Origin: Oceanicoccus sagamiensis
GTDB lineage: Bacteria; Pseudomonadota; Gammaproteobacteria; Pseudomonadales; Dasaniaceae
DNA: 64,000 bases
Direction of reading: 5' to 3'
NCBI RefSeq assembly: GCF_002117105.1
Contig: NZ_CP019343.1
Location: 558,001-622,000, forward strand
Below the pieces are notes generated by a model. That model saw only the letters and a program-made list of their open reading frames with translations, was not told the DNA's origin and did no database searches. Positions 3,901 through 52,507 of the stretch are shown piece by piece. A program made the translations under genes and the position numbers. Numbering within the stretch: the stretch's first letter is position 1; every line of letters starts with the position of its first letter.

Positions 3901-3934
3901 AGTATACTATTAAAATAAAATTAAAAAGTATACT
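3901..3934. promoter_or_regulatory. AGTATACT operator pair upstream of the PKD lipoprotein
   Basis: Two copies of the 8-bp palindrome AGTATACT, at 3901 and 3927, each followed by ATT in an AT-rich context, 26 bp apart and 64 bp from the lipoprotein start. The same box recurs at seven other places in this window, always between genes and near promoters. It is interpreted as an operator; the regulator is unknown. Confidence 0.55.
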
Positions 3935-4067
3935 ATTTAAAGTGCCGGCCAAGCTGGAATGACGTTTATTGTGAATATTCCAGTTAGTTTCTGCCAGCTA
4001 CAAACAGCCAGTATCAAAGCGAATTAGCTCACACACAAAGGGATTGACAGTTCACACTTTTCTATTT

Positions 4068-4097
4068 AGCATACTGTTTAACGATATTTAGTATACC
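4068..4097. promoter_or_regulatory. AGTATACT-type operator pair upstream of the PEP-CTERM gene
   Basis: AGCATACT at 4068 and AGTATACC at 4090, 22 bp apart, lie about 130 bp before the PEP-CTERM gene at 4229. They match the recurrent box with one substitution each. Apart from the two box pairs, the 391-bp intergenic region 3838-4228 shows nothing else recognisable. Confidence 0.5.
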
Positions 4098-4228
4098 TTT
4101 TAAAAGATTAAAAAATACAAATATTCGTTATTTGGTATTTCTTTACAGGAGAGGCCCTCGATCTTGTAGCTTTAGGAAATATGTTAGACATTAATTTAAC
4201 TGGGCAATAATAATTACGGAGTAACCCT

Positions 4229-5008
4229 ATGAAATTTACTAACAAGAAATTATTGGCAGCAGCGGTATTAACCGCCATCGCCACTCAAGCCAACGCGGCA
4301 CCTGTCACCTATACAGTAACGTCCTCCACTGTCACTGCGGACTTGTTCTTTGGCACCGGTTATGTCGGCGCCGGCAGTACGCCTGGTGAAGGTTCCACTG
4401 ACCCTCTAGCCTCGGGCATGGCCTCCTACCAAGGAAACGCGCTACCGGACGGTGGCTATGCGTTCAACATTAGCGGAACAGTGACCTATGATGATGCGGA
4501 TGGCTCAGTGATTAGCAATAATCTAAAGTTTAATGGCGGTGTAACTGTCGACGTAGGCGGTGAGCTAGCTTACGCTGGCTTTCTTAACGCTGGTGGTGAC
4601 TATGTCAACGGTAGTGGCTTAACCCTCAACACAGGGCTTTTTGATGCGACATTCGGAGCTTACCCTGAAGATATGGTCGACCTTACTACCACCAACCTCG
4701 ATTTCACCGTGGCTAGCTTTTGGGATGGTTTCGGATTTGTAAATCCAGGCTTTATTCTTGAGACAGGTGCTCCAATCACTGCTGGCGACATCATTACTCT
4801 TACTATGCCAGGCTACACTCATGAGAGTGGGTTCAACCAAATCAATACTGTTGGTAATGTATCACTATTTGGAGAAGAAGCAGGTATGGGTATGGGCGGC
4901 ACGCTGACTCTGGAAGTTGCTGCAGTTCCTGTTCCTGCCGCAGCATGGCTGTTTGGCTCGGCCATTGTGGGGCTTGCGGGTATTGGACGTAAGCGTAAAT
5001 CAGCTTAA
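4229..5008 (+). CDS. PEP-CTERM-type exported protein
   Basis: A 259-residue protein. Residues 1-24 are a Sec signal peptide ending in ANA-A. The body is rich in Gly, Thr, Asp and beta-type sequence with no recognised catalytic motif. The last 27 residues are a sorting signal: VPVPAAAWLFGSA, a short hydrophobic segment, then RKRK. This is the VPxPAAxWLFGSG variant of the PEP-CTERM tail recognised by exosortase/EpsH systems, so the mature protein is probably processed at the inner membrane and released or surface-attached. No exosortase gene is in the window. A good SD-like GGAG lies before the start. A second, shorter protein with the same tail is at 40184-40834. Confidence 0.8.
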   Translation: MKFTNKKLLAAAVLTAIATQANAAPVTYTVTSSTVTADLFFGTGYVGAGSTPGEGSTDPLASGMASYQGNALPDGGYAFNISGTVTYDDADGSVISNNLKFNGGVTVDVGGELAYAGFLNAGGDYVNGSGLTLNTGLFDATFGAYPEDMVDLTTTNLDFTVASFWDGFGFVNPGFILETGAPITAGDIITLTMPGYTHESGFNQINTVGNVSLFGEEAGMGMGGTLTLEVAAVPVPAAAWLFGSAIVGLAGIGRKRKSA

Positions 5009-5068
5009 CGCTTTAATGGGCCAGCCCCCGTGGCTGGCTTGGATTCGAGTATAAGGAAATACGCAGAG

Positions 5069-5099
5069 CACGGAGTGTTAACCCACTCCGTGTTTTTTT
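5069..5099 (+). terminator. rho-independent terminator after the PEP-CTERM gene
   Basis: CACGGAGTG and CACTCCGTG form a perfect 9-bp stem with a short loop, followed by seven T residues. It sits 60 bp downstream of the stop at 5008. Confidence 0.85.
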
Positions 5100-5107
5100 A
5101 TGCCTAT

Positions 5108-5128
5108 AAAAAGCCCGCGTAAGCGAGC
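5108..5128 (-). terminator. rho-independent terminator of the 11.7-5.1 kb operon
   Basis: On the minus strand, GCTCGC-TTAC-GCGGGC forms a stem with one G-T wobble and is followed by TTTTT. It lies just past the sulfotransferase stop and back to back with the plus-strand terminator. Confidence 0.6.
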
Positions 5129-5134
5129 AAAGGG

Positions 5135-6766
5135 TTAATGACTCGTCCTATTGAGTATGTCAGCTAAAGGCTGAAGCTGCTGTTCATAGTTCTTCCATTT
5201 TTCTACCGCTGTTTTATACATGGGTTTACGTACTTGCGAAGCACTCGGTGTGTTGACATTGCGTTTTGTTTTATGAAAATTCATGCAAGCCTGCTCGAAA
5301 GGTAACTCGCAATAATTCAATAATTCTTTTACCTGATTATCAGGGTCGGCTATCAATTTCTCGTAACTCAAACAATAAATTTTGTCGGGCAGCAGTTCAT
5401 GCCAAAATGCCATAAGGCTTTCATAGAGTCGATAATACTCTGCCAATTCTTGCAGATTGGCGGCATAGCCATGAGCGACATTAAAATCCTGCTGAAAAAT
5501 TGACAGACAATGGTCAAGTGGATTGCGAACACAGTGAATGATTTTAGCCTGAGGAAAAACGGCAGCTATCAAGCCTACCCGAAGAAAATTATGCGGCAGC
5601 TTATCGGTAACCCTAAGTATTGAGTCGTCGACTCCATTTCTTAATTTTTCAATATATTGACTGGCAGCCGTAACAAAAGAGCCTTCATTGACTTGATTAA
5701 GTCCTGCAGGAAATTCCTGCCTCGTTATCGTCATTGCAACCTCACAAACCTGGCGTATATATTCTACTTCCCCAGCACCATGCACAGAGGAATGGCTTGC
5801 CAAAATTTGCTCTGTTAGGCTGGTGCCAGAGCGAGGCATGCCGACAATAAATATGGGGGTTGAATCTTCTAATCCCTTGCCTTCAAAGCGTTGCTGGAAT
5901 GCAGCGCCAAGCTCTAACTCATGCTGCTTGAAGTATTTCTTTTGATCCGGCACGCAATACTGGTAGGTTTGTCTTCTGAGCCGGTTGGCTTCAAGCAGGT
6001 GGTCGAAAGCTTTATCATACTCTGACAAATCATCAAACACTTTACCTAATGCATACTCTAATAGCATACGATCAGGGTCTTTAAGCGTATCGAGTTGAGA
6101 GGCTAGCTCCATAGCTTTCACATCATCATTGTGCTCTTTACATTTTTGCAGAAAAGCAAGTCCATGGTGAGCACTGGCGCAACCAGCATCAAGGGCGATA
6201 GCCTTGCGAAAGCTAAGCTCTGCTGCAGCAAAATCTCCCTGAACTTTTTGAACTGAGCCTCTTTTAGCGTGTGCCAGGGCATTATTGGGCGCCAACTTTA
6301 CCGCTTGATCATACAGCTTTCTTGCCCTATCAGGTTTATTGGTGTCGGTAGAGAACACGCCATAAGTCAGAAGGAATAGTATGTTGTCCGGCTCTAGTTT
6401 ATAAAGTTTTTTTAGACTTTTCTCTGCATCAATTAGCAGATTTAATGCTCGCTCTACAATAAAAACATTCCATGTGGCATTAAAATCATTGGGCCGAATT
6501 ATTTCTGCATGGCGCAAGTAATTCAGGGCTTCCTGGTTACGGTTTATTTTGTGTAGCAGCTGGCCGAGAGACGAGTTAGCCTCATAGTGGTCAGGGGCCA
6601 TGTTAATAATATGGGCATAGCCATTGGCGGCTTGCTGAAGTTGGCCGGTGTTCTCCAGCAACTTAGCGGTCTTTAAAGCTTCCAGATATTTAGGGTTATC
6701 CTTTTTTCTTGGTTTAAGCTTGGCACCGGGCTTGGCTGATCTTTTTTTGCTGGTTTTTTTCGCCAC
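5135..6766 (-). CDS. TPR-repeat sulfotransferase
   Basis: A 543-residue protein. A Lys-rich leader (1-25) is followed by several TPR helix pairs (about 25-230). The sulfotransferase domain starts near residue 303 with PIFIVGMPRSGTSLTEQIL, the 5'-phosphosulfate loop (PRSGTS 311-316) that binds PAPS. RVTDKLPHNFLRVG and KIIHCVRNPLDHCLSIFQQ supply the usual second and 3'-phosphate-binding segments. The family transfers sulfate from PAPS to a hydroxyl of a small molecule, sugar or protein; the acceptor is unknown. The start is a GTG with AGAAGG seven bases upstream. It is the last gene of an operon, 11 bp after the CoA-transferase fusion, which is unusual company for a sulfotransferase. A second gene with the same architecture is at 33948-35570. 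Confidence 0.85.
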   Translation of the reverse strand: MAKKTSKKRSAKPGAKLKPRKKDNPKYLEALKTAKLLENTGQLQQAANGYAHIINMAPDHYEANSSLGQLLHKINRNQEALNYLRHAEIIRPNDFNATWNVFIVERALNLLIDAEKSLKKLYKLEPDNILFLLTYGVFSTDTNKPDRARKLYDQAVKLAPNNALAHAKRGSVQKVQGDFAAAELSFRKAIALDAGCASAHHGLAFLQKCKEHNDDVKAMELASQLDTLKDPDRMLLEYALGKVFDDLSEYDKAFDHLLEANRLRRQTYQYCVPDQKKYFKQHELELGAAFQQRFEGKGLEDSTPIFIVGMPRSGTSLTEQILASHSSVHGAGEVEYIRQVCEVAMTITRQEFPAGLNQVNEGSFVTAASQYIEKLRNGVDDSILRVTDKLPHNFLRVGLIAAVFPQAKIIHCVRNPLDHCLSIFQQDFNVAHGYAANLQELAEYYRLYESLMAFWHELLPDKIYCLSYEKLIADPDNQVKELLNYCELPFEQACMNFHKTKRNVNTPSASQVRKPMYKTAVEKWKNYEQQLQPLADILNRTSH

Positions 6767-6777
6767 AACGCTGCCTT

Positions 6778-9336
6778 CTATTTTAAGCGAGCTTTGATCG
6801 CCGCAACTTTAAGTATGGTTTTAACGCCCAGAGAAACGGCCAGAGTTTTTAACCTTTGCCTGGCCACGCCCCAATCTGCCGGCTTGCCGATTTCAAGATC
6901 GCCGGCTGCCACCAAGGTGTCAATCTCCTGATCAGATAACTCAAGCAACTCCCTGATCAGTTCACGAGTATGCTCTGCCTGAGCCGGCGCCCGGTTAATG
7001 ACAGGCGGTGGCAAAGTTTCGCTAAAGCCAACTGGGCCATTTTCTGTTTCTAACAACCTGCCTGCAGTAGGCTGATCCAGCAGGCGGAAGAAGTGCCTGA
7101 CCTTATAGTGCGGATTTTGCAGAAACTCGCTGAGTCGCAGCATATTACCCGCGGGCACACCCTGTGCCTGACACGCCATCATCACTTGATAGGGCGAGAG
7201 ACTGGCACTCCACTGTGTCACCATCGCTTCCAGTTGTTCACGGTGCTGCACTCTACCCAAGGCACTAGCGTAGCGACTATCTTCCGCTAAATCGTCTCGC
7301 CCCATAGCCCTGCATAGCCCCTGCCATTCATAATCGCTGGTCACTGATACGACACACCACTGGTCATCCCCTTGACAAGAAAATACCGAGTCAGGTGCGT
7401 TGAACTCATGGCTATTACCCTTGGCGACCATAGTGCCCGGCGCTAAAGATTCGCGCAGAAATTCGGGCGCCAATACATTCATAATGCATTCAGCCTGAGA
7501 CAAGTCCACAAAACCGCCGACACCGGTGGCTCTGCGCTGAATCAGTTTGGCAAGGATGGCCGTTGCACTCACCCGGGCGGAAAAGTGGTCAGGGTAAATG
7601 GTGACTACATCCGCAAAGCCCGCTTCCTGTTCCGGGTAACGCCACAGGCCTGATAGTGAAGTACTGGCACGTACCAGCGGGCCATAACCCATCGTGCTGG
7701 CTTCGGGGCCGGCGCTGCCCATGGCGCTACTCTCGGCACATATAATGCGCGGGTTAATCGACTGTAAAACTTCATAGCCTATACCCAGCTTATCCATCGT
7801 CCCCGGCTTGAAATTGGAGAGCACAATATCAGCCTGCTCAACCAGCTGTTTAAACAGTTCAATGCCTTTTTCGGAGCGTAAATTTAAGCCTAATGATTGC
7901 TTGCCTCGGTTGCCCTGTGCAAAGGGTATGGACACTGGGTTGCTATCGAAGCTTTGCCGCATGCCATCACCAAAGGCTTTATTCTCGAGCTTAATCACCC
8001 TCGCCCCTTGATCGGCAAACAGGCGGCCCAGCTCTGCCCCCGCCACAATCACACCTAAATCCAACACTAACAACCCGGCTAAAGGGCGCCGCGTTATCGG
8101 CTCACTACCGAATGGATCCGGTGTCTGCGCCTCATCACTCAGCCGTGCCACGCACTGGGCTACAGTATCTTGTCCAACGGCCGGTGCCGGCTGACGAAAC
8201 CCCACGCGCTGACCATCAATCCGCTGATAACCGGCAGGGACTTTCCCGGTAGCCCCCTCCAATGTAAGGTCTACAAAAAAGTCGCGGGCCGCAAAATGCT
8301 GATCGTTAAATAACTCCGATGGCTGCGCCACCGAGGCAATAGGAATACCTTTTTCACGACCGGCCAGCACCAGCTCTTCACGGGTTTTATCGGCAAACAG
8401 AGCCGCAATCAGCTCATTAATCGGGCCGATACTCAAGAGTCTGACAGCCGCCTTGCCGTACTTGGGGTGCTTAAAATGATGATCAGGACCCAGCCATGCC
8501 GACATGGCCTGCCACTGCCGTGGGTTGAGTACACAGGCGCGTACATAACCATCGACACATTTGAAAACCGGATACATTAGCGCCAGGGAAGGTAATTGAC
8601 CAGGCACAAAATCAACCACGGTGCGCCCTTTAATCGCCACTTCGATGGCGGTACGACCGGCAGAGGCGCTGCCCGTCACACCAATGGGTGGGTCCAGAAT
8701 CTGAGCCACGGCATCATTAATAGAGAAGTCCAGCGTATCGCCCTGCCCAGTGTGCAGGCGCTGCCAGTAGGCCAGCAAAGCGACCCAAGCTGCCTGAATA
8801 GCGGCGGTTTCCAGCGCCATATCACCCGGTGGTAATAAGGGCTTATTTCCCGCAGTCCCCGAACGCGATAGCTCACCGCCCATGGCCATATGGACCGCTT
8901 CAGTCGCCTTGAAATCTTTATAGGGCCCCTGCAAACCAAAATCGCTAATGGATAACACCAACAACTCGGGTTTTAAAGCGCGTAATTTGGCGGCCCCTAA
9001 ACCCTTTGCATTCAGATAGCCTGACTCTGTACCATCCAACACGATATCGGCACTCTTCAGTAAACTTAGAAATTGTTCTTTACCTTCACTGACCGCTAAA
9101 TCAATCACCACACTTTTCTTATTCGCATTGCGGGCTGCAAAAGTAAGGCTTTGCCCCTGATAGAGTGGCTCGCGCAGTCTGGAGGCCATTCCCCCTGGCG
9201 GCTCAACCAAAATCACCTCGGCACCCAGATCCGCCAATTGACGGCCACAACCCTGACCAATACGGTCACACAAATCCAGTATCCGCAGGCCGGATAAAGG
9301 CAAAGCGGCTTGGTTATCGGAGGTATTGACTGACAT
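6778..9336 (-). CDS. double-domain class III CoA-transferase (CaiB/BaiF fusion)
   Basis: An 852-residue protein of two CaiB/BaiF domains in tandem, about twice the usual 400 residues. Domain 1 spans about 14-395 (LSGLRILDL, ADLGAEVILVEPPGG). Domain 2 spans about 417-800 (RPLAGLLVLDLG, ADQGARVIKLENK). Each has an Asp where the family carries its catalytic aspartyl-CoA residue (PPGD172M and YPD583HF). Class III enzymes move CoA between carboxylic acids and normally form interlocked dimers, so a fusion could act as a covalent pseudo-dimer. It follows the thiolase/crotonase fusion by 28 bp and precedes the sulfotransferase by 11 bp. A single-domain homologue is at 26212-27423. It probably activates a catabolic acid; the substrate is unknown. 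Confidence 0.85.
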   Translation of the reverse strand: MSVNTSDNQAALPLSGLRILDLCDRIGQGCGRQLADLGAEVILVEPPGGMASRLREPLYQGQSLTFAARNANKKSVVIDLAVSEGKEQFLSLLKSADIVLDGTESGYLNAKGLGAAKLRALKPELLVLSISDFGLQGPYKDFKATEAVHMAMGGELSRSGTAGNKPLLPPGDMALETAAIQAAWVALLAYWQRLHTGQGDTLDFSINDAVAQILDPPIGVTGSASAGRTAIEVAIKGRTVVDFVPGQLPSLALMYPVFKCVDGYVRACVLNPRQWQAMSAWLGPDHHFKHPKYGKAAVRLLSIGPINELIAALFADKTREELVLAGREKGIPIASVAQPSELFNDQHFAARDFFVDLTLEGATGKVPAGYQRIDGQRVGFRQPAPAVGQDTVAQCVARLSDEAQTPDPFGSEPITRRPLAGLLVLDLGVIVAGAELGRLFADQGARVIKLENKAFGDGMRQSFDSNPVSIPFAQGNRGKQSLGLNLRSEKGIELFKQLVEQADIVLSNFKPGTMDKLGIGYEVLQSINPRIICAESSAMGSAGPEASTMGYGPLVRASTSLSGLWRYPEQEAGFADVVTIYPDHFSARVSATAILAKLIQRRATGVGGFVDLSQAECIMNVLAPEFLRESLAPGTMVAKGNSHEFNAPDSVFSCQGDDQWCVVSVTSDYEWQGLCRAMGRDDLAEDSRYASALGRVQHREQLEAMVTQWSASLSPYQVMMACQAQGVPAGNMLRLSEFLQNPHYKVRHFFRLLDQPTAGRLLETENGPVGFSETLPPPVINRAPAQAEHTRELIRELLELSDQEIDTLVAAGDLEIGKPADWGVARQRLKTLAVSLGVKTILKVAAIKARLK

Positions 9337-9364
9337 GCTGTTTTATCCTGAAGCTATTAAAGTG

Positions 9365-11716
9365 TTAACGCCCAGACCATTTCGGGGCTCTTTTCTCAAC
9401 AAAGGCTTTGGGCCCCTCCATAAAGTCCTCACTGGCCAGCAACTCATCAAAGGCGGCCGGTATACCGACTACGGAGTCTTCAACGGCACTGTGCAGATTA
9501 GTTTCTGCTAATAGCTTCATGGTTATACGAATAGACGAGGGGGAGTTTTGGCACAATAGCGTGGCGTATTCTCTTGCCGCTTCCATCACCGCACCACTGT
9601 CACACACTTGATTCACAAAGCCTATTTCCTGCGCTCGAGTCGCCGTAATGGGTTTACCGGTGATCAATAAATCCATCGCCTGCTTGAGTGGAATCTGCCG
9701 TGTTAATCGTTGGATACCGCCGGCACCGGCAATCAGCCCCACTTTAACTTCGGGTAAGGCAAACTGCGCTTTTTTATCGGCGATAACAATGTCGCAGGCC
9801 AGTGCAACTTCCATCCCACCACCCATCGCAAAACCGTTGACCGCGGCAATAACCGGCTTAGTTCTACGGCGTGATGTAATGCCGGCAAAACCGGACGTTG
9901 GCGTCCACATAGGCTTGCCCGTGGCGGAATACTTCAGGTCGTTGCCGGTACAAAAGGCTTTATCACCCGCTCCGGTTAGAATGGCAACCCAGAGCGAAGC
10001 ATCACTTTCATAGACATCAAAAACCTCTGCCAACTCCTCATTGGCGTAGGGGTGTAAAGCGTTCATAGCTTCAGGGCGGTTGATGGTCACTTCCAGAATA
10101 TGCCCCTTTTGCGCTACCGTGCAAAACTCATAGTTATCCCTAAACTCCGTTGCTGGGACCGGCATCTGCAAACTCAGCGCCTCTTTAGATAAAGCCACGC
10201 GGTTACCCTTGCCTATGGCGCCGGCAAAAATAGTTTGGCCAAGCATATCGCGACTTAACAAGGCCTCAATAAACGCCTGGTCGTTGGAAAAATTGTTGGC
10301 AATAAAGCGTGCACCGCTTGTTACCATGCGACCGATAACCACCGCATATAAGGGTTTGCCTCGACTAAATTGAACCGTATAGGATTCCACCACCGCTTCA
10401 CCTTCAGGGCTATTATCCAGCTTCACCGCCGCCACTGCGTTTAGTTGTTCCTGCAAGGCTTTAGAATCGCAGCGCTGCCAGCCAGGTCGAGTCGAATAAA
10501 CCCCCACCGAATGCTTGTGCATCACACCACCATTAGCACCGACCAGTCCATAGCTATCGGGTTTATGCCGCAGTCGATTCACCACCGCAGCAATACCGTG
10601 CATAGAATAATTATTGCCCGGGCCGCCAAAGAAAGGCAGGCCGCCGGTTTGGGTTAAACACTGATCAGTGCCATCTAAACCCAGTGCCGCTTTCGCCTCT
10701 GAAACTACAATAGGAAAGCAGCTATAGATATCGATAAACTCAAGGTCAGCACCACGAATGCCGGCGGTGGCTAAAGCCTGCTGGTAAGCGCCGGTCAATG
10801 CGGTGGACTCACCCAGTTTTTCTCGCTCCAGCAAGCTTTTATCATAGCTATCGGCATAGGCATGCAGGTAAACCCACTGGCTCTGGTCAATGCCTAGTTG
10901 CTGTGCTTTGCCTACGGTCGTTAACACTACCGCGGCCGCTTGATTAACCCCGTCTTTGGCCACCATGGCGCGGGTATAGGGATAAGCAACATAAGCGTTT
11001 TTGCCGGCCGGATTGGCAATCTCTTCGGCACTCAGGCTAAGCGGGAACATGGCATTGGGATTGTCAGCCGCCACCGCCGAAAAAGGTGCCAGCAAGGCTG
11101 CCATCTCCTGCGTATAGCTGGCGATCTCTTTATTCTGACTGTTACATCTGGCCATTTCGCAGATAGCGTAAGAAACGGGTGCGGCCAATAGTTGATGTTT
11201 CATCTGTTCGTAGCTGAGCATACCCTGCATACCAATGCCTTGGTCTTCCAACTGCCCATCGACTTGCTCTGCCCAATCCAATGACTGCTGGGCCTTTATC
11301 GCGGCTTTAGTGCTGGCAATGACTTCGGCTCCGGCCAGCAATACCATATTGGCCTTGCCGTCAGCCAAATGTTCACTCCATTCATTCACCAGTTTTTGCG
11401 GTGTATTGCCACCCATGGTGGAATAAATCGCCCTGGTTGGATTGGCGCCAACACGCTGGGCGATAGAGCGGGGCATATTATTGGTATTGCCAAAGGGCTG
11501 TGGCCACATGGCATTGCTGTCGGGAAAAGTTCGGGTGGCTACTACCACATCAATTTCGCTCGCCAGCTGTTCGACTGACAAGGCATCATTAAGTGCTATT
11601 GCAGCTGCCTGACCTGCCAGAGCGTGGGCCGAAGAGGCCTCTTGCAACGGTTCAGTCAACAGCTCTGTAACTTCACCCACACCGATAATAATGGGGGTAT
11701 TTAAATCAATAGACAC
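9365..11716 (-). CDS. thiolase-like protein fused to enoyl-CoA hydratase
   Basis: A 783-residue fusion. Residues 1 to about 505 are a thiolase-superfamily domain of the SCP-x/lipid-transfer type (FIDIYSCFPIVVSEA with Cys333, GGPGNNYSMHG with His373). The position of the classical nucleophilic Cys is occupied by STMGGNTPQ, without Cys, so ordinary thiolysis is doubtful; relatives lacking this Cys include retro-aldolases of steroid side-chain breakdown. Residues about 530-783 are a crotonase domain with the oxyanion-hole GGG (GFAMGGGMEVALACDI) and LPEVKVGL. The fusion could couple hydration to C-C cleavage. The start is GTG after GAGAGG. It is the first gene of its operon, with AGTATACT boxes 60 bp upstream. 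Unfused homologues are at 23826-25409 and 27474-28265. Confidence 0.85.
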   Translation of the reverse strand: MSIDLNTPIIIGVGEVTELLTEPLQEASSAHALAGQAAAIALNDALSVEQLASEIDVVVATRTFPDSNAMWPQPFGNTNNMPRSIAQRVGANPTRAIYSTMGGNTPQKLVNEWSEHLADGKANMVLLAGAEVIASTKAAIKAQQSLDWAEQVDGQLEDQGIGMQGMLSYEQMKHQLLAAPVSYAICEMARCNSQNKEIASYTQEMAALLAPFSAVAADNPNAMFPLSLSAEEIANPAGKNAYVAYPYTRAMVAKDGVNQAAAVVLTTVGKAQQLGIDQSQWVYLHAYADSYDKSLLEREKLGESTALTGAYQQALATAGIRGADLEFIDIYSCFPIVVSEAKAALGLDGTDQCLTQTGGLPFFGGPGNNYSMHGIAAVVNRLRHKPDSYGLVGANGGVMHKHSVGVYSTRPGWQRCDSKALQEQLNAVAAVKLDNSPEGEAVVESYTVQFSRGKPLYAVVIGRMVTSGARFIANNFSNDQAFIEALLSRDMLGQTIFAGAIGKGNRVALSKEALSLQMPVPATEFRDNYEFCTVAQKGHILEVTINRPEAMNALHPYANEELAEVFDVYESDASLWVAILTGAGDKAFCTGNDLKYSATGKPMWTPTSGFAGITSRRRTKPVIAAVNGFAMGGGMEVALACDIVIADKKAQFALPEVKVGLIAGAGGIQRLTRQIPLKQAMDLLITGKPITATRAQEIGFVNQVCDSGAVMEAAREYATLLCQNSPSSIRITMKLLAETNLHSAVEDSVVGIPAAFDELLASEDFMEGPKAFVEKRAPKWSGR

Positions 11717-11775
11717 TAATTACAACCTCTCAGCTAACTAATTTATAAACTGTAAAAAACAGACACCCTATAAAG

Positions 11776-11800
11776 AGTATACTGTTTTAAAAAGTATATC
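11776..11800. promoter_or_regulatory. AGTATACT operator upstream of the thiolase/crotonase operon
   Basis: AGTATACT at 11776 and a weaker AGTATATC at 11793, 17 bp apart, lie 60-84 bp upstream of the GTG start of the fusion gene. They match the recurrent intergenic box. Confidence 0.5.
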
Positions 11801-11842
11801 AATTAACATCTTTACGCTTGAGGTCTTGTTATCGTTAAGCCA

Positions 11843-12217
11843 TCAGCCAGTGGCAGCCAGCATGATTCGACGCCTGTATTCTGTTGGGGTTACTCCCTTC
11901 CAGCGATAAAAGGCATGGGTAAAAGATTCCTTGGTAGCGTAACCTGACCGACGCGCTACATCCTCAATACCGTACTGACAATCATCGATAAGCGGCATGA
12001 TCATTTGCTCTATATACAAATCCAATACTTGCTTAAAACTGGTATTTTCTGCCCTTAACCTACGTGTCAAAGTGCGGGCGGACATATGAAGTTGACGAGC
12101 GACGGCTTCTTGACTGGGCAGGGAATTAAAATCAAGTGTGCTACCAATAGCGGACTTAACTTTTTGCTGATAGGTCATCGGTGTCATAGTGATTTTTTGA
12201 TAGATAAAAAAGAGCAT
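11843..12217 (-). CDS. minimal AraC-type DNA-binding protein
   Basis: A 124-residue protein that is essentially only the C-terminal AraC/XylS DNA-binding domain. The first HTH is at about 38-60 (SQEAVARQLHMSARTLTRRL) and the second at about 85-112 (YGIEDVARRSGYATKESFTHAFYRWKGVTPTEYRRR). Family members usually have about 300 residues with an N-terminal effector-binding half, which is absent here. The DNA upstream is noncoding and carries an AGTATACT box at 12279, so this is either a genuine stand-alone domain or the surviving part of a truncated gene. Several ATG codons are possible (12217, 12187, 12178). It lies between two divergent catabolic operons and is a candidate local regulator. Confidence 0.8.
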   Translation of the reverse strand: MLFFIYQKITMTPMTYQQKVKSAIGSTLDFNSLPSQEAVARQLHMSARTLTRRLRAENTSFKQVLDLYIEQMIMPLIDDCQYGIEDVARRSGYATKESFTHAFYRWKGVTPTEYRRRIMLAATG

Positions 12218-12278
12218 GCCGCAATAATTATTACAGCACGCTCAAGTGGGAATATGAGACTCCTGAATCATTATAAAC

Positions 12279-12286
12279 AGTATACT
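12279..12286. promoter_or_regulatory. AGTATACT box upstream of the AraC-type gene
   Basis: A single perfect AGTATACT followed by ATATAAAA, 62 bp upstream of the AraC-type start. It suggests that the regulator belongs to the same regulon as the flanking operons. Confidence 0.45.
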
Positions 12287-26207: not shown

Positions 26208-26211
26208 AACC

Positions 26212-43670: not shown

Positions 43671-43724
43671 GAATAGCCTTACTAATAACAACGATGCAGA
43701 AAACTGACGGAAAAAAAACCTATT

Positions 43725-44324: not shown

Positions 44325-44338
44325 GATTTTATATTGTC

Positions 44339-46486
44339 TTACCGGAAGGTTTCACCCGCGGATAGTTTGTCTTCCACAATGTGTGGGCAAACAAAACGCT
44401 CGCCATATTGTGCCGCCAGCTCACCACAACGCGTTTGGAATTTTTCCAGGCCGTAGGTATTAACAAACTGGATAAAACCACCGCTCCAGACAGGTGCACC
44501 AATGCCCATAATAGAACCGACATTACCATCGGCAACCGTTCGTAAAACATTGCTTTGCAGGCACTTAAGCGTTTCAATCACTTGGCGGAATAACAGTCGA
44601 TCCTTGATGTCTTGATCGGACATTTCAACGTCCGACCGATAGAACTGATCAACCAGCTGCGGCCATAGTGTCTTACCACCATCGCTGCTGTAGTCAAAGT
44701 AGCCACCCTTGTGGTGACGGCCACCGCGACCATTCTCAACCGTAAGGAAGTTAATGACTTTACGCAGAGCGTCTTGCTCACCCCACTTGTCCGTTACGCC
44801 CATATCAGCCCAAGTCTCAAACGCCTTGCGCGACAGCTCTTGGCTGACTTCATCGTGAACCGTCAACGGGCCTACCGGCATACCCATCGCCTTGCCCAGA
44901 TTATCCACTCGAACAGGGTAGACGCCTTCTGTCACCATGCGCGCAGCTTCATCAAAGTAAGTGCTAAAGGTACGAGAAGTAAAGAAACCCAGAGAATCGT
45001 TAACGACGATAGGGGTCTTTTTGATTTGCTTGGTGTAATCAAACGCTTTTGCCAGTGCGACATCACTGGTGTTATCACCGCAAATGATTTCAACCAACGG
45101 CATCTTATCAACAGGAGAGAAGAAATGAATGCCAATAAAGTTTTCAGCCTTACTGGACGCCTCGGCTAACTGTGTAATCGGCAAAGTAGATGTATTGGAA
45201 CCCCACACACCGTCCTGCGCCAGGAATTTCTCAGTCGTTTGGGTAATCTTGTTTTTCAGTTCGATGTTCTCGAAAACCGCTTCGATGATCAAATCACAGC
45301 CCTGAAGATCATTGTCATCAGCGGTGGGTTTAATTAAAGCCAGAACCGCCGCTTTCTTTGCTTCACTCATGCGGCCTTTGGCGACGCGTTTTGCCAACAG
45401 ATTTTCTGAATAGGCCTTGCCCTTTTCTGCAGATTGCTCAGAGATATCCTTTAGAATCACTTCAATGCCCGCCATCGCAGACACATAGGCAATGCCCTGC
45501 CCCATCATGCCGGCACCCAATACGCCGACCTTCTTAGTCAACTGTGGCTCAATAGCCTGAGGGCGAGAAGCGCCGCCATTGACCTTGTTCATCTGAAAGA
45601 AAAAGGTATTGATCATATTTTTGGCTTCAGGTGTCACCGCCAAATACGCCAGCCCGCGACTCTCGATGGTCATAGCAGCATCAAAATCAAGACGCGCCGC
45701 TTCAACCGCACAGTCCAGAATCTGTTCTGGCGCAGGCAGTAATCCGCGTGTTTTCTTCGCCAGCATGGCCGGGGCGGCCATGATTACCTGAGCCAGTTTT
45801 GGTGAGTTGGCAGCGCCACCAGGTATCTTGAAGCCCTTAACATCCCAAGGTTGTACCGACGCGGCTTGATTGCCTTTTTGTTCCAGAATATAAGCCTTGG
45901 CACTGGGGATAAGCGCCTCTAATGAATCGACCATTTCATGGATCATGCCAGCTTTAAGTGCTTTCTCGGGCGTCACTTTTTTACCTTCCAGCAGGAATGG
46001 CAGAGCATTTTGTAGACCCAACAGATTCACCATGCGCACCACGCCACCGCCACCGGGTAACAAACCCAGGCTAACCTCTGGCAGACCGAGCTGTACCGAT
46101 TTATGGTTGTAAGCAATGCGGTAGTGAGTTGCCAAACAAATTTCAAAACCACCGCCCAGCGCCGCGCCATTAATGGCCGACACAACCGGTACCGGTAATT
46201 TTTCCAGGCGGCGAAAATCCGCTTTCATAGCTTCGATGGAATTAAAGAAGTCTTGCGTCTGCGCAGGCGTTGTCGCCAACAGACTGTTCAGATCCCCCCC
46301 CGCAAAAAAAGTTTTCTTGGCTGAAGCCAATACAACACCCGTTAAACCTTGTTCTTTTTCTAACCTCTCCACCGTCGCTTTCATTACGGGATTAAATTCG
46401 GCACTCATCGAGTTAACCGGGCCCGTCATATCCATGGTGACGGTGACTATGCCGTCAGCATCTTTTTCATACTGGAATATACTCAT
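44339..46486 (-). CDS. bifunctional enoyl-CoA hydratase/3-hydroxyacyl-CoA dehydrogenase (FadJ/FadB-like)
   Basis: A 715-residue multifunctional beta-oxidation enzyme. The N-terminal crotonase domain (about 1-190) has NGAALGGGFEICLATHYRI and LPEVSLGLLPGGGG. The central NAD-binding domain starts near 328 (KKVGVLGAGMMGQGIA), with HFFSPVDKMPLVEII and NDSLGFFTSR, and a C-terminal helical dimerisation domain follows. It catalyses hydration of enoyl-CoA and oxidation of 3-hydroxyacyl-CoA. It follows a thiolase in a minus-strand operon that starts with receptor 4 and a Tat flavoprotein, giving a full lower beta-oxidation spiral together with the thiolase. Confidence 0.92.
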   Translation of the reverse strand: MSIFQYEKDADGIVTVTMDMTGPVNSMSAEFNPVMKATVERLEKEQGLTGVVLASAKKTFFAGGDLNSLLATTPAQTQDFFNSIEAMKADFRRLEKLPVPVVSAINGAALGGGFEICLATHYRIAYNHKSVQLGLPEVSLGLLPGGGGVVRMVNLLGLQNALPFLLEGKKVTPEKALKAGMIHEMVDSLEALIPSAKAYILEQKGNQAASVQPWDVKGFKIPGGAANSPKLAQVIMAAPAMLAKKTRGLLPAPEQILDCAVEAARLDFDAAMTIESRGLAYLAVTPEAKNMINTFFFQMNKVNGGASRPQAIEPQLTKKVGVLGAGMMGQGIAYVSAMAGIEVILKDISEQSAEKGKAYSENLLAKRVAKGRMSEAKKAAVLALIKPTADDNDLQGCDLIIEAVFENIELKNKITQTTEKFLAQDGVWGSNTSTLPITQLAEASSKAENFIGIHFFSPVDKMPLVEIICGDNTSDVALAKAFDYTKQIKKTPIVVNDSLGFFTSRTFSTYFDEAARMVTEGVYPVRVDNLGKAMGMPVGPLTVHDEVSQELSRKAFETWADMGVTDKWGEQDALRKVINFLTVENGRGGRHHKGGYFDYSSDGGKTLWPQLVDQFYRSDVEMSDQDIKDRLLFRQVIETLKCLQSNVLRTVADGNVGSIMGIGAPVWSGGFIQFVNTYGLEKFQTRCGELAAQYGERFVCPHIVEDKLSAGETFR

Positions 46487-46511
46487 GTCTTTTCCTGAAT
46501 TCTGTTGTTAA

Positions 46512-46540
46512 TCTCGATCACTCTCGATCACTCTCGATAG
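46512..46540. repeat. short tandem repeat CTCGATCACT
   Basis: CTCGATCACT occurs twice in tandem and is followed by CTCGATAGAT, just upstream of the FadJ-like gene. A microrepeat without clear function. Confidence 0.5.
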
Positions 46541-46563
46541 ATAGTAAATAGCTGCTTTTACGC

Positions 46564-47772
46564 TTACACACGCTCAATGATGGTAGAGATACCCATACCA
46601 CCGCCGACACATAAAGACAGCATGGCGCGCTTTAAACCACGGCGCTCAAGCTCATCGAGCATGATGCTGACGAGCATCGCACCGGTGGCACCCAGCGGGT
46701 GACCCATGGCAATGGAACCGCCGTTAACGTTGGTCACTTCATGGCTGATGTCGAGATCTTTCATATAGCGCATGGCCACTGAGGCAAAGGCTTCGTTGAT
46801 TTCCCAGAGGTCGATATCAGAGGTTTTCAGACCGGCTTTATCGAGGGCTTTTTGGGCTGCAGGGCCAGGGCCTGTCAACATGATGATGGGGCAGCGGGCC
46901 AGTACGGCCGTTGCCACAATACGACCACGAGGTGTCAGGCCCAGATCTTTTCCGGCTTTTTCGCTGCCGATAAGCACCGCCGAAGCACCGTCGACAATAC
47001 CCGATGAGTTACCCGGCGTATGAACATGGGTGACTCTTTCCAACGAGTTGTACTTGCGCAAGATAACGTCGTCAAAACCAACACTGCCTATCATTTCAAA
47101 CGAGGCTTTCAAATTGCCCAATCCTTCCATGCTGGTGTCAGGCTTAATAAAGTCGTCCCTGGCCAAAATGGTCAAGCCATTCTTATCCAGGACTGGCAAG
47201 ACTGACCTGTCGAAGTAACCATTATCACGGGCGTAGCTAGCACGTTGCTGCGACGCCAGAGCGAAGGCATCCACATCTTCACGGCTGTAGCCGTCCAGGT
47301 TGGCGATAACATCGGCGCCAATCCCCTGAGGCACAAAACCCGTCTTCAATTGAAAAGCCGCGTCACCAGCCATCGCTCCACCGTTGGAGCCCATAGGCAC
47401 ACGGGACATACATTCAACACCGCCGGCTACGACCAAATCTTCCCAGCCTGATGCCACTTTTTGCGCGGCAATATTGACCGCCTCAAGACCTGAAGCGCAA
47501 AAGCGATCCAGCTGCACTCCGGCAACAGACTCATCCCAGTCGGCATTCTGGACGATCATCTTGGCGACATCGGAGCCCTGCTCACCCACCGGTGTCACAC
47601 AGCCCATCACCACATCATCCACGTAGGATGTGTCCAAGTCATGGCGGGCCTGCAGGCCTTTTAATAAGCCAGCGCCCAAGTCAATCGGTTTGACTTGGTG
47701 CAAGCTGCCGTCTTTTTTACCCTTGCTGCGAGGGGTACGTACGGCGTCGTAGATATAAGCGTGATGAGTCAT
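46564..47772 (-). CDS. acetyl-CoA C-acyltransferase (thiolase)
   Basis: A 402-residue thiolase with the complete active site: nucleophile Cys in [12 protein letters not shown] (about 91), His in [10 protein letters not shown] and the second Cys in LCVGGGMG. This contrasts with the two thiolase-like proteins elsewhere in the window that lack the nucleophile. It cleaves 3-ketoacyl-CoA with CoA. 56 bp after the Tat flavoprotein and 77 bp before the FadJ-like gene, it is the thiolytic step of that operon. Confidence 0.92.
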
Positions 47773-47828
47773 CGTATGCCTTTTCTTTAATGGTTAGAGA
47801 TGCCTTTTACTAACTAAAACACCGGGAA

Positions 47829-49811
47829 TTATGCTGGGGAGTGGCTTGTTTGTTCTTCAACGGCGCGCCAGGCGGCGTCCCAGGCTGCATCCATAAAGGC
47901 CCTGGCTTCGGAGTCGGAATTGGCGATGGATATTCGGCCAAACTGTGCCCGACCGATCTCATGGGGCGCCTTGCCCTCCGGCCATTCTGGATCATCAAGC
48001 GCCAGATACTGATAGGCATAACCATGTGAGATCCTGTTGACGGTAATGGCTTTGATATCAGTCTCTTGATTGAAACCCAGGGGCCCCAGTGTTGCCTGTA
48101 ACTGGTCGCGAATCTGCTTCTCATAGTCTGCAAAGCTTGTTGCATAGATCTTGTGGCGCCCGACCCGGAGCAAGTCTCGCCCTTTCACCCCCTTCTGCGA
48201 AATGGATATCGGGGATGACATCATAAATACCGCCATGGGGTCTTCAGGTTTACTCGGTGGTTGGTAACCGCCAACAGACATTGTGGGCGCCGTACTGATT
48301 ATCTGAAAGGGGTCTTGCGGACACTGGATCATCGATGTCCCTAGCTTCGAAAACGCTTGCCCGTTCTCCAACAACACATTGGCATAGACAAACGGGACCT
48401 TAACACCGTACTTGAGGGCTTCTTTCTGGGCTTCAGGCAACTCTGGACACAGGTGAGGTATTAGGCCGTTGTAACAGGCTAGTACGCAATGACTGGCTGA
48501 GATTCGCAGCGGCTCGCCCTCCTTGACATAATCAATGTGCACCTTGTTGTCTGGTTTTTCGCGTACGCCAACAACGGTGCTGTTAAGCCTGATGCGGGTA
48601 TTGTTATCGGCTTTATCCAAGGCTTGGTAGTTAAACCGGGATATAGCAACGTCCTCGACGCCCTTCATGTTAGGGGCAACCGCAGGAATCAGCTGTTTGA
48701 CCAGCATCCGGGCAATGGACGCATTGCCATCCGGAAACATCCGCACATCCAAAAGACTTTCGGAAAACTGCACACTCAAAGAGTCCACCAGACCGCCTAA
48801 CCAACCCATGGCGCGCAACCCGGCTGCGCCTGAAACGATGGCCTCAAGTACGGACAGGTTCCAACCCGACAGGCCTTTATAGACCATGAGCCAAGCGCTA
48901 AAGAGTGGCAATGTGCCCTCCTCCAGACCCACTCGCTCCACCAGAAATTGGTTGTAGCTTACCGAGCTGGCATAGTCGTACTTCTCACTCAGCGACAACT
49001 CTGCCAAATAGTCTCGTTCGCCGCCGACAAAGTCGATCAGTTTGTCTTGCTCAGACTCAGCTAATGGGAGCCCTCGAATGGCTTCGACATAGCCTTCAGC
49101 CCCATGCAGCATCTTTACCCAGTTCCCATTGCGTACCACATGGCCGTTGGCGCCAGGTAATGCCATCGAGTTTTGCGCGTCATAATTGCCACCCATGGCA
49201 TAGTCATTGGGCGTGTTTTCCCTGATCCCGTCCAGCACGTCCTTGGTCAGTCCAAGTCCGTTCAGCAAGGCAGCAGAAGACTGGCTGTAGCTAGTGTAAT
49301 TTTCGATATTCTGTGCGCCGCCTAAACTCAGAACCATCCTGCCGTCGTGATGAAACTCATTGCGCTTGGCATGGCCGCCGAAGTCGTCATGATTATCCAG
49401 AATCAGTATTCGCGCCTCAGGCCCCATCTTTTCCCGGTAGTACCACGCCGCAGCCAGGCCGCTCATCCCCGCGCCAACCACCACCAGGTCATAGTGTTCA
49501 TCCAGTGTCTGGTATTGCGCAGGCTTTTGCCCCTTCCAAGCCAGAGCGTGAGCGACTTCATAGGAGCCTTTATGACTGCCACGCATTCCCGTCAGGGTCG
49601 GCGGGTAGTACTGATCAATACCCGGGGGGCTAAATGGCATCGGGGCCTGTGTCGTAACCAGCGCTGACGGTCCCTTATCAGCACCGCAAGCCTGGAGCAT
49701 CAAGCCACCAGTGCCTATCGCTACGCCGTTGATAAAGTCACGCCGAGTGATGCTTTTGCTGATTTTCCCTGCCGACTGGATTGACTCTGAGCCACGTTTT
49801 TTTCTTGTCAC
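47829..49811 (-). CDS. Tat-exported FAD oxidoreductase, spermidine-dehydrogenase-like (2)
   Basis: About 660 residues from a GTG at 49811, which has TTGGAGG six bases upstream; the frame is open to 49838. SITRRDFINGVAIG is a twin-arginine signal followed by LMLQAC, a lipobox, so this paralogue is probably a Tat-exported lipoprotein, unlike the other two. Conserved blocks: YYPPTLTGMRGSHKGSYEVAH, VVGAGMSGLAAA, HDDFGGHAKRNEF and GRISIANSDSEARAF. It lies 71 bp after receptor 4 and before a thiolase. This suggests that the compound imported by the receptor is first oxidised in the periplasm and then enters beta-oxidation. Confidence 0.75.
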   Translation of the reverse strand: MTRKKRGSESIQSAGKISKSITRRDFINGVAIGTGGLMLQACGADKGPSALVTTQAPMPFSPPGIDQYYPPTLTGMRGSHKGSYEVAHALAWKGQKPAQYQTLDEHYDLVVVGAGMSGLAAAWYYREKMGPEARILILDNHDDFGGHAKRNEFHHDGRMVLSLGGAQNIENYTSYSQSSAALLNGLGLTKDVLDGIRENTPNDYAMGGNYDAQNSMALPGANGHVVRNGNWVKMLHGAEGYVEAIRGLPLAESEQDKLIDFVGGERDYLAELSLSEKYDYASSVSYNQFLVERVGLEEGTLPLFSAWLMVYKGLSGWNLSVLEAIVSGAAGLRAMGWLGGLVDSLSVQFSESLLDVRMFPDGNASIARMLVKQLIPAVAPNMKGVEDVAISRFNYQALDKADNNTRIRLNSTVVGVREKPDNKVHIDYVKEGEPLRISASHCVLACYNGLIPHLCPELPEAQKEALKYGVKVPFVYANVLLENGQAFSKLGTSMIQCPQDPFQIISTAPTMSVGGYQPPSKPEDPMAVFMMSSPISISQKGVKGRDLLRVGRHKIYATSFADYEKQIRDQLQATLGPLGFNQETDIKAITVNRISHGYAYQYLALDDPEWPEGKAPHEIGRAQFGRISIANSDSEARAFMDAAWDAAWRAVEEQTSHSPA

Positions 49812-49882
49812 TGAAAGCCTCCAAATCGGCACTGACATTGACCCGGTTTTGGGTCCTATTAAATAAGGGGAGAGCCCGCCCG

Positions 49883-52414
49883 CTAAAAGTTATAGCGCAA
49901 CGATACTCCCCAGGTTCTCGGCATACCGGCATAACGCATCGTAGTGTCTGTCTGCGTCTGCACGCTGTTCCAATAGTACTCGTCAGTCAAATTCCGTCCC
50001 CACAGGGTGGCTTGCCAGTCGGAACTTGCGCTTGGCGAGACTAAGAAACTGGCTCCTACCAGCGTGTAAGAGTCAACGGCGAAAACAGGGTTACCTTCAA
50101 AATCAGCTTGCTGATCATCAGAGTAAGACGCATCAATGGTAAACCTTCCGATCAGTTGATCCGTGATATCAAAACCGTAGCTCATAAGACCAAACGCTTG
50201 AATTTCAGGAGAATACTCAAACTCGGAACCGGCAAAGTCGGTAGGCTCCGCGAACTTGTTGTAACCGACATATTCATTGATCTGCGTATCCAGATAGGAG
50301 ATACCGAATTGAGTCACCAGGTTATCTGTGGCCTGCCAGGTTAGATCCACTTCAGCGCCCATCACCTCTGAATCAGGAACATTGACCAGTCGGGTCAAGG
50401 TGTTGAAGATCGGATCTTCTACTTCGCCGAAAACTTGCTTGTCCTCGTAGTCGTAGTAATACACAGACGTATTTAACTGCACAGTCCCTTCCGCCATCGA
50501 GGATTTCAGCCCGACTTCATAGGCATCCACTTGTTCCTGTGTCACGGGGTCGTACTGGCTGGCTACGTTTGCTGACAAAGAGGGAAATGCGCCAGATTTA
50601 TAACCCCGGGAATAACTTACATAGAGCAAGTGATCATCAGACAGATTCCAGTCTAGCGCTATGCGGCCCGACCAATTGTCTTCATCCAAATTTTTCTTAA
50701 CCACTTCAACGGGCTGGGGAAAAGGACCTTCACCCGCAGCGAATTCATTGGTAAGGCAGCCACCATTTGGAATGGCAAGCTGAAACGCGACATTCCATAC
50801 CGCCAGGATATTGCCATCACCGTTAAGATCTCTTGAACAGCCCTCAAAGTCTGCCTCATCTTCCGTATATCTCAGGCCGGTTGTCAGTGTAAAAGCCTCA
50901 CTTAGCTCCCACTCCACCTGCCCAAATATTGCCCGGGTGTCGGTATCAATATTGGCAAAATTTTGCCAATCTCTGAAACCGCCAATAAACTCGTCAAAGT
51001 CAGCCTGTGGCAAAAAGACACCGGCATCAGCATAACCGGTTAGCGTTTGAAATTTCAGCCCTTCGAGGACCGAAGTCTGGCCAGCCCATGGATTGGAGCG
51101 GTCCTCCGTTTCATCAGAAGATATAAAGACACCGGCAATAAACTTCAGCTGATCATATTCACCGGTGATACGAAACTCCTGTGAGAATGATTCGATCGAT
51201 CCTTCGTCGTTAAAGACCACAACTTCATACTCAGTCCCGTCGCGATCATAGAAATCATCGCGCTCAAAGTCGGCGTAGCCGGTAAGGGAGGTAAGGGTCA
51301 GTGTGTCAGAAAGGCTCCAATCAAATCTTAGGGATAAAGACAGCATGTCATTATCCTGGGTAAACTTGTTGGGTCTGGGTGTAGCCGTTGAACCAGGCCA
51401 AGAATCTGAACTCTCGTAAGAGGTGCCATAGATAGCATTAAAAACGGGTATCCAGCCGGCACCCGGCCCAGTATTGGGTTGATCTGCCGTAGCCCAATCT
51501 GCATCTTGGTTGTCCGGGTTGGTCAGTATGGCGTCCTGAAGACCTGGCACGACAAATATACTGGCCTCAGGGCTGGTTCCTACCTCCGGGTTATAATTGA
51601 TTGCCTGGCCCGCCTGTCCGTCGGATTTATCTTCCCACCAACTGGCAGAAAACTGTGCTGAAAGCGTTTCGCTTGGCTCCCATAGCAGCGCAAGCCTGGC
51701 AGCGCTACGATCAACCTCGCCCAGTTCTGCATCGCGGGACACACTCTTCTGCCACCCTTCGTCTGAACCCTGTGTCTTGAAAGCAATTCTGCCACTCACA
51801 GTGTCGGTGATTCCACCATTCACAAAACCCTCAAGCCCCCAGGAATCAAACTCTCCATACTCAACTTCAATCGAGCCTTCGAATTCATCCGTTGGCTTAT
51901 TGGTGATGTAGTTGATCAGGCCACCCGTTGTATTTCGGCCGTAGAGAGTCCCTTGAGGACCTTTCAAAATTTCGACCCGATCGAAGTCAAAGTTCAAGCC
52001 CTTGGACATCACCGGGTAGGCATAGGACACTTCGTCGATGTAAACACCTACCGGAGAGGTAGAGGACATATTAGGCGTATTAAAGCCAATCCCGCGCATC
52101 GTATAGATAGGGGTGCCACCGCTGGACGTGGCCATAGTCAGTCCGGGCACGATCTGCACCAGATCTCGGGTGTCATTAATACCCAATGTGTCAAGATCAT
52201 CGCCACGAAAGGCTGAAATTGCCATACCGATATCGTTGACCGACTGCTCCCTTTTTTGAGCGGTTACGATGACTTCCTCAAGTATTTGCGCGCTGGAAAA
52301 TGTGCTGGCAAAGGTTGAAATCCCGGCTGCGAATATAGCCTTATACAGTCGATGACGCTGACGTCTCTGACGTGCCTCTAGTGTCAGCTGTGGCAATCTA
52401 CGGATGTTGTTCAT
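49883..52414 (-). CDS. TonB-dependent outer-membrane receptor 4
   Basis: About 843 residues from the ATG at 52414, which has GGAGAAG seven bases upstream; the frame extends to 52468. A long N-region, a signal peptide ending FSSAQ, TonB box LEEVIVTAQKR, plug (VEILKGPQGTLYGRNTTGGLI) and a barrel ending in Phe (SLRYNF). It is the first gene of an operon with the Tat flavoprotein, thiolase and FadJ-like enzyme. An AGTATACC/GGTATACT operator lies 66 bp upstream. Likely the importer for that operon's substrate. Confidence 0.9.
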   Translation of the reverse strand: MNNIRRLPQLTLEARQRRQRHRLYKAIFAAGISTFASTFSSAQILEEVIVTAQKREQSVNDIGMAISAFRGDDLDTLGINDTRDLVQIVPGLTMATSSGGTPIYTMRGIGFNTPNMSSTSPVGVYIDEVSYAYPVMSKGLNFDFDRVEILKGPQGTLYGRNTTGGLINYITNKPTDEFEGSIEVEYGEFDSWGLEGFVNGGITDTVSGRIAFKTQGSDEGWQKSVSRDAELGEVDRSAARLALLWEPSETLSAQFSASWWEDKSDGQAGQAINYNPEVGTSPEASIFVVPGLQDAILTNPDNQDADWATADQPNTGPGAGWIPVFNAIYGTSYESSDSWPGSTATPRPNKFTQDNDMLSLSLRFDWSLSDTLTLTSLTGYADFERDDFYDRDGTEYEVVVFNDEGSIESFSQEFRITGEYDQLKFIAGVFISSDETEDRSNPWAGQTSVLEGLKFQTLTGYADAGVFLPQADFDEFIGGFRDWQNFANIDTDTRAIFGQVEWELSEAFTLTTGLRYTEDEADFEGCSRDLNGDGNILAVWNVAFQLAIPNGGCLTNEFAAGEGPFPQPVEVVKKNLDEDNWSGRIALDWNLSDDHLLYVSYSRGYKSGAFPSLSANVASQYDPVTQEQVDAYEVGLKSSMAEGTVQLNTSVYYYDYEDKQVFGEVEDPIFNTLTRLVNVPDSEVMGAEVDLTWQATDNLVTQFGISYLDTQINEYVGYNKFAEPTDFAGSEFEYSPEIQAFGLMSYGFDITDQLIGRFTIDASYSDDQQADFEGNPVFAVDSYTLVGASFLVSPSASSDWQATLWGRNLTDEYYWNSVQTQTDTTMRYAGMPRTWGVSLRYNF

Positions 52415-52479
52415 ATTATCTTCTCCAGGTGGAAAGCGTGGCTTGAGCAATGCCTGCCTATGAGGCATAACTATAATTT

Positions 52480-52507
52480 AGTATACCTTTTATTATATTG
52501 GTATACT
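52480..52507. promoter_or_regulatory. AGTATACC-N12-GGTATACT operator upstream of receptor 4
   Basis: A perfect inverted repeat: AGTATACC (52480), 12 AT-only bases, GGTATACT (52500). This is the most symmetrical example of the recurrent box and suggests that the full operator is a pair of 8-bp boxes about two helical turns apart. Confidence 0.65.

Follow-up and report, generated by a model that had tools for sequence, protein, structure and literature searches.

A shared palindromic box at receptor and catabolic genes of Oceanicoccus sagamiensis as the predicted operator of a duplicated GntR-type regulator

Which regulator reads the 8-bp palindrome AGTATACT, which recurs at gene starts in a 64,000-nucleotide stretch of the Oceanicoccus sagamiensis genome (NZ_CP019343.1, positions 558,001 to 622,000; the window)? 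An original prediction, made from the letters of the window, held that this box and its variants mark a regulon of receptors and catabolic operons, with one regulator co-ordinating the uptake and degradation of a hydrophobic substrate, and named a minimal AraC-type protein or a TetR/MarR protein outside the window as candidates. We consider it quite probable, judging from sequence comparison, that AGTATACT is the operator of a covalently duplicated FadR/FCD-type GntR regulator encoded directly upstream of the window, and this double GntR protein, not the AraC-type or the TetR protein, is the best candidate for the regulator. Positions are window positions (genome position minus 558000), so that those upstream of the window are negative.

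Clustering of the box in the window and the genome

The window contains 8 copies of AGTATACT compared with 0.62 expected, a number reached in 0 of 100 shuffles, and 4 copies of AGTATACC when both strands are counted. The whole genome of 4,472,079 bases has 18 copies of AGTATACT, ten of which lie within genome positions 556325-591320 (window -1675 to 33320); the binomial P value for 10/18 inside the 54-kb span 556325-610507, about 1.2% of the genome, is 3e-15, a descriptive value, because the motif was picked from the same region and this choice is uncorrected. AGTATACC was less clustered, with 4 of its 36 genomic copies in the span (P 9e-4, descriptive for the same reason). Among the intergenic 8-bp palindromes of the span, AGTATACT was the commonest (10 copies; runner-up, 4). 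All ten span copies are intergenic; of the remaining eight, six are in open reading frames (ORFs) and two between genes, and A/T flanks are present in 0/8. The boxed sites and the genes that they precede are as follows.

-1675 and -1651 (genome 556325-556356), just outside the window: paired boxes AGTATACT, 162-186 bp ahead of the gene of regulator A, described below
3901..3934: two AGTATACT boxes spaced 26 bp, lying 64-90 bp ahead of a gene for a PKD-domain protein (241-3837, minus strand)
4068..4097: degenerate AGCATACT (one mismatch, at 4068) and AGTATACC, 139-161 bp ahead of a PEP-CTERM-type gene (4229, plus strand; VPLPA-CTERM match slightly under cut-off)
11776..11800: AGTATACT and degenerate AGTATATC (two mismatches, at 11793), 60 bp ahead of a thiolase/crotonase gene (9365-11716, minus strand)
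12279..12286: AGTATACT, 62 bp ahead of the minimal AraC-type gene (11843-12217, minus strand)
13112..13119: AGTATACT, 115 bp ahead of a desaturase gene (13227, plus strand)
30681..30707: paired boxes AGTATACC/AGTATACT, 19 bp apart, ahead of receptor 1 (28466-30670, minus strand)
33283..33320: two AGTATACT boxes spaced 30 bp, lying 102-132 bp ahead of receptor 2 (30866-33181, minus strand)
52480..52507: perfect inverted pair AGTATACC-N12-GGTATACT, ahead of receptor 4 (49883-52468, minus strand)

The shared box at gene starts is thus real, and the positions predicted earlier all hold except 4068 and 11793, where the sequences are the degenerate AGCATACT and AGTATATC; the inverted repeat at 52480/52500 with 12 bp between is perfect, as had been read, and the pair at -1675/-1651 is an addition to the earlier list. 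Exact boxes (AGTATACT, AGTATACC or GGTATACT) in -1700..52600 are intergenic in 14/14 cases, the intergenic fraction of this stretch being 0.116, in a gene set that omits two doubtful ORFs, namely 12572-12919, which has no Pfam match, and -1910..-1575 (111 amino acids (aa), no Pfam scan), which overlaps the -1675/-1651 pair. The earlier impression that boxes do not lie inside genes therefore stands with these two ORFs set aside. GGTATACC has two copies in the stretch, both within genes. The claim that each box is within about 170 bp of a gene start was confirmed for 13 of the 14 exact boxes, compared with 54% of 1500 random intergenic positions (P 0.003), and not for the remaining one; the predicted starts, being first possible start codons, are uncertain. 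Box pairs with 8-20 bases between them number four in the whole genome, and those with 8-24 bases number five, all inside the span.

It could be argued that the boxes are nothing more than -10 elements of promoters (TATACT), chance products of AT-rich DNA or parts of a dispersed repeat, as AGTATACT contains TATACT, a consensus scan run without a control places the best -10 element on or near some boxes, and repeats of the palindrome GTGGATTATAATCCAC lie a few hundred bp or less from several of them. However, ordinary promoters would spread genome-wide, yet more than half of the copies lie in about one-eightieth of the genome; the flanks beyond ~8 bp share almost no information, which indicates that the boxes are not copies of one repeat; and two further genomes have the box cluster as well. 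The genome-wide counts refute this explanation in the main, and it is hardly credible.

The duplicated regulators and the extended operator

The genes of the candidate regulators lie directly upstream of the window.

-1489 to -32 (genome 556511-557968), plus strand: regulator A, 485 aa, TTG start, tandem GntR-FCD-GntR-FCD
-3897 to -2368 (genome 554103-555632), plus strand: regulator B, ORF of 509 aa, conserved part from about genome 554193
-3861 to -3854: degenerate box AGTATATT near the likely start of regulator B

Regulators A and B are paralogues with 38% identity. Pfam matches place GntR (PF00392) in two stretches in each of them and FCD (PF07729) in two stretches in B and one in A (second half), and the FCD unit in the first half of A was assigned through alignment with B and other double GntR proteins. 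Two winged helix-turn-helix (wHTH)-FCD units are accordingly present in chains of ~480-509 aa, whereas the family typically has one unit of ~240 aa per chain; a limited search of open-licence literature found no paper on this double architecture. The structural model of the related protein from Halioglobus metagenome-assembled genome (MAG) ANT-34 (predicted local distance difference test score, 79.8; predicted TM-score, 0.79; four-row alignment) has the GntR-FCD pattern twice, with a low-confidence linker at ~234-256 joining the two halves. The best 50 of 849 Foldseek structures were GntR-type regulators, including NanR, Atu1419, AlkR and FadR, each corresponding to about one half of the model with modest target-normalised TM-scores (0.39-0.70), and a sequence search matched five GntR sequences, each to one half at most; no double-length chain was present among those 50 structures or the five sequence matches. 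By eye, TTTAGTATATT was also found directly upstream of the L050 orthologue.

The motif Ser-Arg-x-x-x-Arg is invariant in both wHTHs of seven aligned double GntR proteins, and the equivalent residues of Atu1419 are reported to contact ATGTATACAT, with Arg45 reading the G (PMC7797058). At the place equivalent to Thr46, the first helix has Asp in all seven proteins and the second has Ser or Asn. FCD domains typically have a metal site of Asn or Asp plus three His; in the second FCD of the four proteins of the group with boxes, two His are in register, the third is shifted by one in A, and Ala occupies the Asn/Asp place (by eye).

As for neighbouring genes, an aldehyde dehydrogenase gene (Pfam) lies at -5459 to -4017, directly upstream of regulator B, and the neighbour of the double GntR gene in two further genomes, G032 (L042 2914-4341) and G196 (L043 17-1291), also resembles an aldehyde dehydrogenase by eye.

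The operator was delineated by aligning, in both orientations, 37 sites from three genomes, which gave an extended palindrome of approximately WWWnRGTATACYnWWW. These were clustered boxes chosen by eye: 15 from the window genome (G000, including the degenerate 4068), 14 from the Halioglobus MAG (G390; contigs C83, C160 and C525) and 8 from a Haliea MAG (G391; contig C2), with scattered single matches, GGTATACC matches and a pair on G390 contig C198 seen later being excluded. The near-fixed core follows from this choice of sites. Two and three bases out from the box, where no selection had been applied, the 37 sites have only A or T, and the information content drops off at ~8 bp from the box. 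The extended box matches the window genome 16 times, with 13 of the matches in the span (P 7e-23, computed after the motif choice). The GTATAC core with its A/T surroundings agrees with GTM-N0-1-KAC, the operator consensus given for FadR-subfamily GntR regulators (PMC4494728). Among the matches listed for published work on AGTATACT, none was on the present subject by title.

The shape of this site bears on the two regulators that had been proposed. AraC sites are usually asymmetric direct repeats. If the minimal AraC-type protein (11843-12217) read AGTATACT, it would be autoregulated via the box at 12279, which is 62 bp ahead of its gene, and a further box lies just past the gene end, ahead of the thiolase gene; a 346-aa Halioglobus AraC protein (36% identity over 104 residues) also has one AGTATACT 124 bp upstream (G390:C60 7482). 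However, the box is a symmetric palindrome with A/T flanks, unlike an asymmetric direct-repeat site, the MAG stretches compared show no relative of the protein within the cluster of boxed operons, the only match being the DNA-binding part of the 346-aa protein, which is encoded on another Halioglobus contig, and the box ahead of that gene lacks the A/T flanks. An AraC-type reader is therefore improbable, and the AraC-type gene is better seen as a target of the box regulator.

A TetR-family protein fares still less well. Its gene (54201-54779) is inside the window and within the island, and an orthologue (57%) is present in the Haliea island. On the other hand, its own promoter has two other palindromes of the ACATGTCA...GACATG (CATGTCA) type, and its divergent operon has no exact box nearby. 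The two ACATGTCA-type palindromes occupy the TetR/AMP-ligase divergent intergenic region (54780-54840), and, because such palindromes are also kept before the Haliea orthologue, the TetR protein seems to have an operator of its own. That this protein, or one like it, reads the box is very improbable.

Boxes and double GntR genes in other genomes

Double GntR genes are rare. Within the order, they were found in 3/390 genomes at 1e-30 (the window genome itself, G032 and G196), within the family of the Haliea MAG in 2/140 at 1e-40, and within a draw from the phylum in 1/398 at 1e-40, that one being the window's own genome; genome_contigs yielded four loci from 25 candidate stretches. The Zhongshania record L051 and G032 are probably one genome. 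The Halioglobus protein is 74% and the Haliea protein 37% identical to regulator B.

The extended box was counted in 45 genomes, giving 16 in the window genome, 15 in the Halioglobus MAG and 9 in the Haliea MAG, compared with 0-6 in the other 42. In the Halioglobus MAG, 14 of 29 AGTATACT copies are on three contigs (18, 15 and 7 kb), the 7-kb one holding the regulator, and in the Haliea MAG, 7 of 25 are within 44 kb of the regulator's contig. In the Halioglobus MAG, a box precedes the regulator gene by 158 bp, and in the Haliea MAG, one stands at the gene start (-9), so that boxes accompany the regulator in all three genomes. Furthermore, boxes lie by orthologous genes in two of the three genomes: 5 of 18 reciprocal best pairs between the Halioglobus and Haliea MAGs are boxed in both (box -60 to 300 bp from the start). 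The distances in bp (Halioglobus/Haliea) are as follows.

Amidohydrolase: 35/93
Fe-ADH: 140/119
Periplasmic binding protein: 82/250
136-aa protein before a lipid-transfer-type thiolase: 120/53
Double GntR regulator: 158/-9

Because of the genome-wide clustering and the same boxes in two other genomes, the conclusion that one regulon joins receptors and catabolic operons, which was the core of the original prediction, is well supported. Its expected conservation by orthologues was borne out between the two MAGs and not with the window genome, as 0/17 reciprocal best pairs with the Haliea MAG and 0/6 with the Halioglobus MAG are boxed in both. The regulator and the operator thus recur together, while their targets differ. 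Even so, the window genome and the Haliea MAG have island genes in common, namely those of an FAD oxidoreductase (70%), an aldehyde dehydrogenase (78%), an AMP-ligase (62%), receptor 1 (56%) and the TetR protein (57%).

Besides these unboxed pairs, several other observations weigh against the double GntR protein as the reader of the box. The only box of regulator B in the window genome is the degenerate one. Regulator and box cluster occur together in three genomes only, two of which are MAGs, and 3 of the 8 Haliea boxes used are located within predicted ORFs, with two of the three sited near the first start codon possible there. The genomes with the distant double GntR proteins, Zhongshania, Spongiibacter and G196 (28-32% identity to the Halioglobus protein), have 1, 0 and 3 extended boxes, respectively, and a simple search of intergenic DNA around their double GntR genes, which covered exact 10-14-bp palindromes having GT in the arm as well as 8-bp palindromes present more than once, found none that was shared. 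Paired sites alone are not unique, as at least one pair is present in 19/145 genomes, the window genome included.

As an alternative, the boxes could belong to another, unlinked regulator, for example a single-unit GntR protein, with the double GntR gene being itself a target. GTATAC is described as a general GntR-type core (PMC4494728), three genomes have a double GntR gene without box clusters, and G043, from the same order, carries seven pairs at scattered places, the double GntR genomes in the 390-genome draw being G000, G032 and G196 (a draw for which the inclusion of G043 is not established). However, in 3/3 genomes found with box clusters, these surround the double GntR gene, and we regard an unlinked regulator as unlikely. 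The seven paired RGTATACY sites of G043 are dispersed across its 6.9-Mb genome and perhaps belong to another GntR-type regulon. The distant double GntR proteins of Zhongshania, Spongiibacter and G196 differ from the group with boxes by I to T in the second reading helix and by R to Q in the second wing (one position each), changes that could alter the operator specificity.

Predicted regulation and target genes

The double GntR regulator would bind at or near the promoters of the receptor operons and of the beta-oxidation-type operons, as well as upstream of its own gene, and would repress all of these. Its release would follow when an FCD domain takes up a pathway intermediate, which is perhaps an acyl-CoA. 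Either paralogue, A or B, may be the acting one. It is most likely a repressor, because TATAAT lies between the two boxes at 52480, on the strand of the receptor 4 gene, and because two characterised FCD regulators of catabolic genes whose operators lie on promoter elements, Atu1419 and AlkR, repress and are relieved by a metabolite; the promoter consensus scan, having been made without a control, was not used as proof of repression.

Atu1419 (VanR group, FCD subfamily of GntR, Agrobacterium fabrum) resembles the present system as an FCD-type GntR repressor in a catabolic gene region, whose palindromic operator has a GTATAC core (ATGTATACAT) in two copies per promoter region and overlaps promoter elements, whose own gene is repressed, and whose tetramer can bridge two palindromes; it differs in being a single GntR-FCD unit that assembles as a tetramer, in outer bases AT..AT rather than A..T, in paired sites 190 bp apart and in a metal site of Asn and three His, as described in PMC7797058. 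AlkR (GntR/VanR, Pseudomonas aeruginosa) is likewise reported as an FCD-type protein that represses hydrocarbon catabolism at a short palindrome and is released by long-chain acyl-CoA, whereas it is a single unit with the operator ATTGTCAGACAAT and a footprint with one protected site (PMC12042122). NanR of E. coli, the structure of which (6wfq) matches about half of the Halioglobus model, also places several GntR units on closely spaced GGTATA elements; however, these are three separate dimers on GGTATA repeats (PMC8012715), whereas palindromes, variable spacing and a duplicated protein are found here.

Two chains of the regulator would hold one box pair; such bridging is suggested by the double reading heads and the frequent double boxes, and the FCD protein Atu1419 bridges two palindromes. 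The start-to-start spacings of the pairs are 19, 20, 22, 24, 26 and 30 bp in the window genome and range from 22 to 242 bp in the MAGs. A fixed helical phasing of the box pairs was rejected, since the spacings fit no single phase. As a tentative extension, it is conceivable that the covalently duplicated FCD regulator, whose two reading heads are unlike, serves as a pseudo-dimer within a single chain, that pairs of such chains bridge palindromes at variable spacing, and that regulator and operator travel together between bacteria, capturing different catabolic operons.

The probable target genes in the window are listed below.

9365..11716, minus strand: thiolase-like protein fused to enoyl-CoA hydratase, followed downstream by CoA-transferase and TPR-sulfotransferase genes (5135-9336)
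11843..12217, minus strand: AraC-type DNA-binding domain only, 124 aa
13227..17902, plus strand: operon of a fatty acid desaturase-type protein, an SDR, an AMP-ligase and an acyl-CoA dehydrogenase
28466..30670, minus strand: TonB-dependent receptor 1
30866..33181, minus strand: TonB-dependent receptor 2
49883..52468, minus strand: TonB-dependent receptor 4, followed downstream by FAD oxidoreductase, thiolase and hydratase/hydroxyacyl-CoA dehydrogenase genes (44339-49838)

The families that bear on the substrate are P450, CoA ligases, CoA-transferases, acyl-CoA dehydrogenases, AveC-like and Amidohydro_2 proteins and lipid-transfer-type thiolase. This content suggests that a bulky lipid-like compound is taken up and degraded, which fits the hydrophobic substrate supposed earlier, and no marker settled which compound it is. 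A rare regulator architecture is tied in this way to a concrete operator and to defined receptors and catabolic operons. Direct experiments can thereby address what the duplication does and which substrate the island handles, and searches with the extended box can reveal more operons of this pathway where genomes are incomplete.

Two TPR-sulfotransferase proteins (5135-6766 and 33948-35603, both minus strand) adjoin receptor and catabolic genes, and an AbiEi/AbiEii-type toxin-antitoxin pair (38366-39983, plus strand; Pfam and PADLOC matches) lies inside the island. The REP-like palindrome GTGGATTATAATCCAC has 335 genomic copies (reversed control, 0), some evenly spaced like tandem arrays, and copies in the window include those at 12484, 12983, 18517 and 33731. 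In a 244-kb region, four of the five copies of GTGGAATATATTCCAC are 43 bp from a GTGGATTATAATCCAC palindrome.

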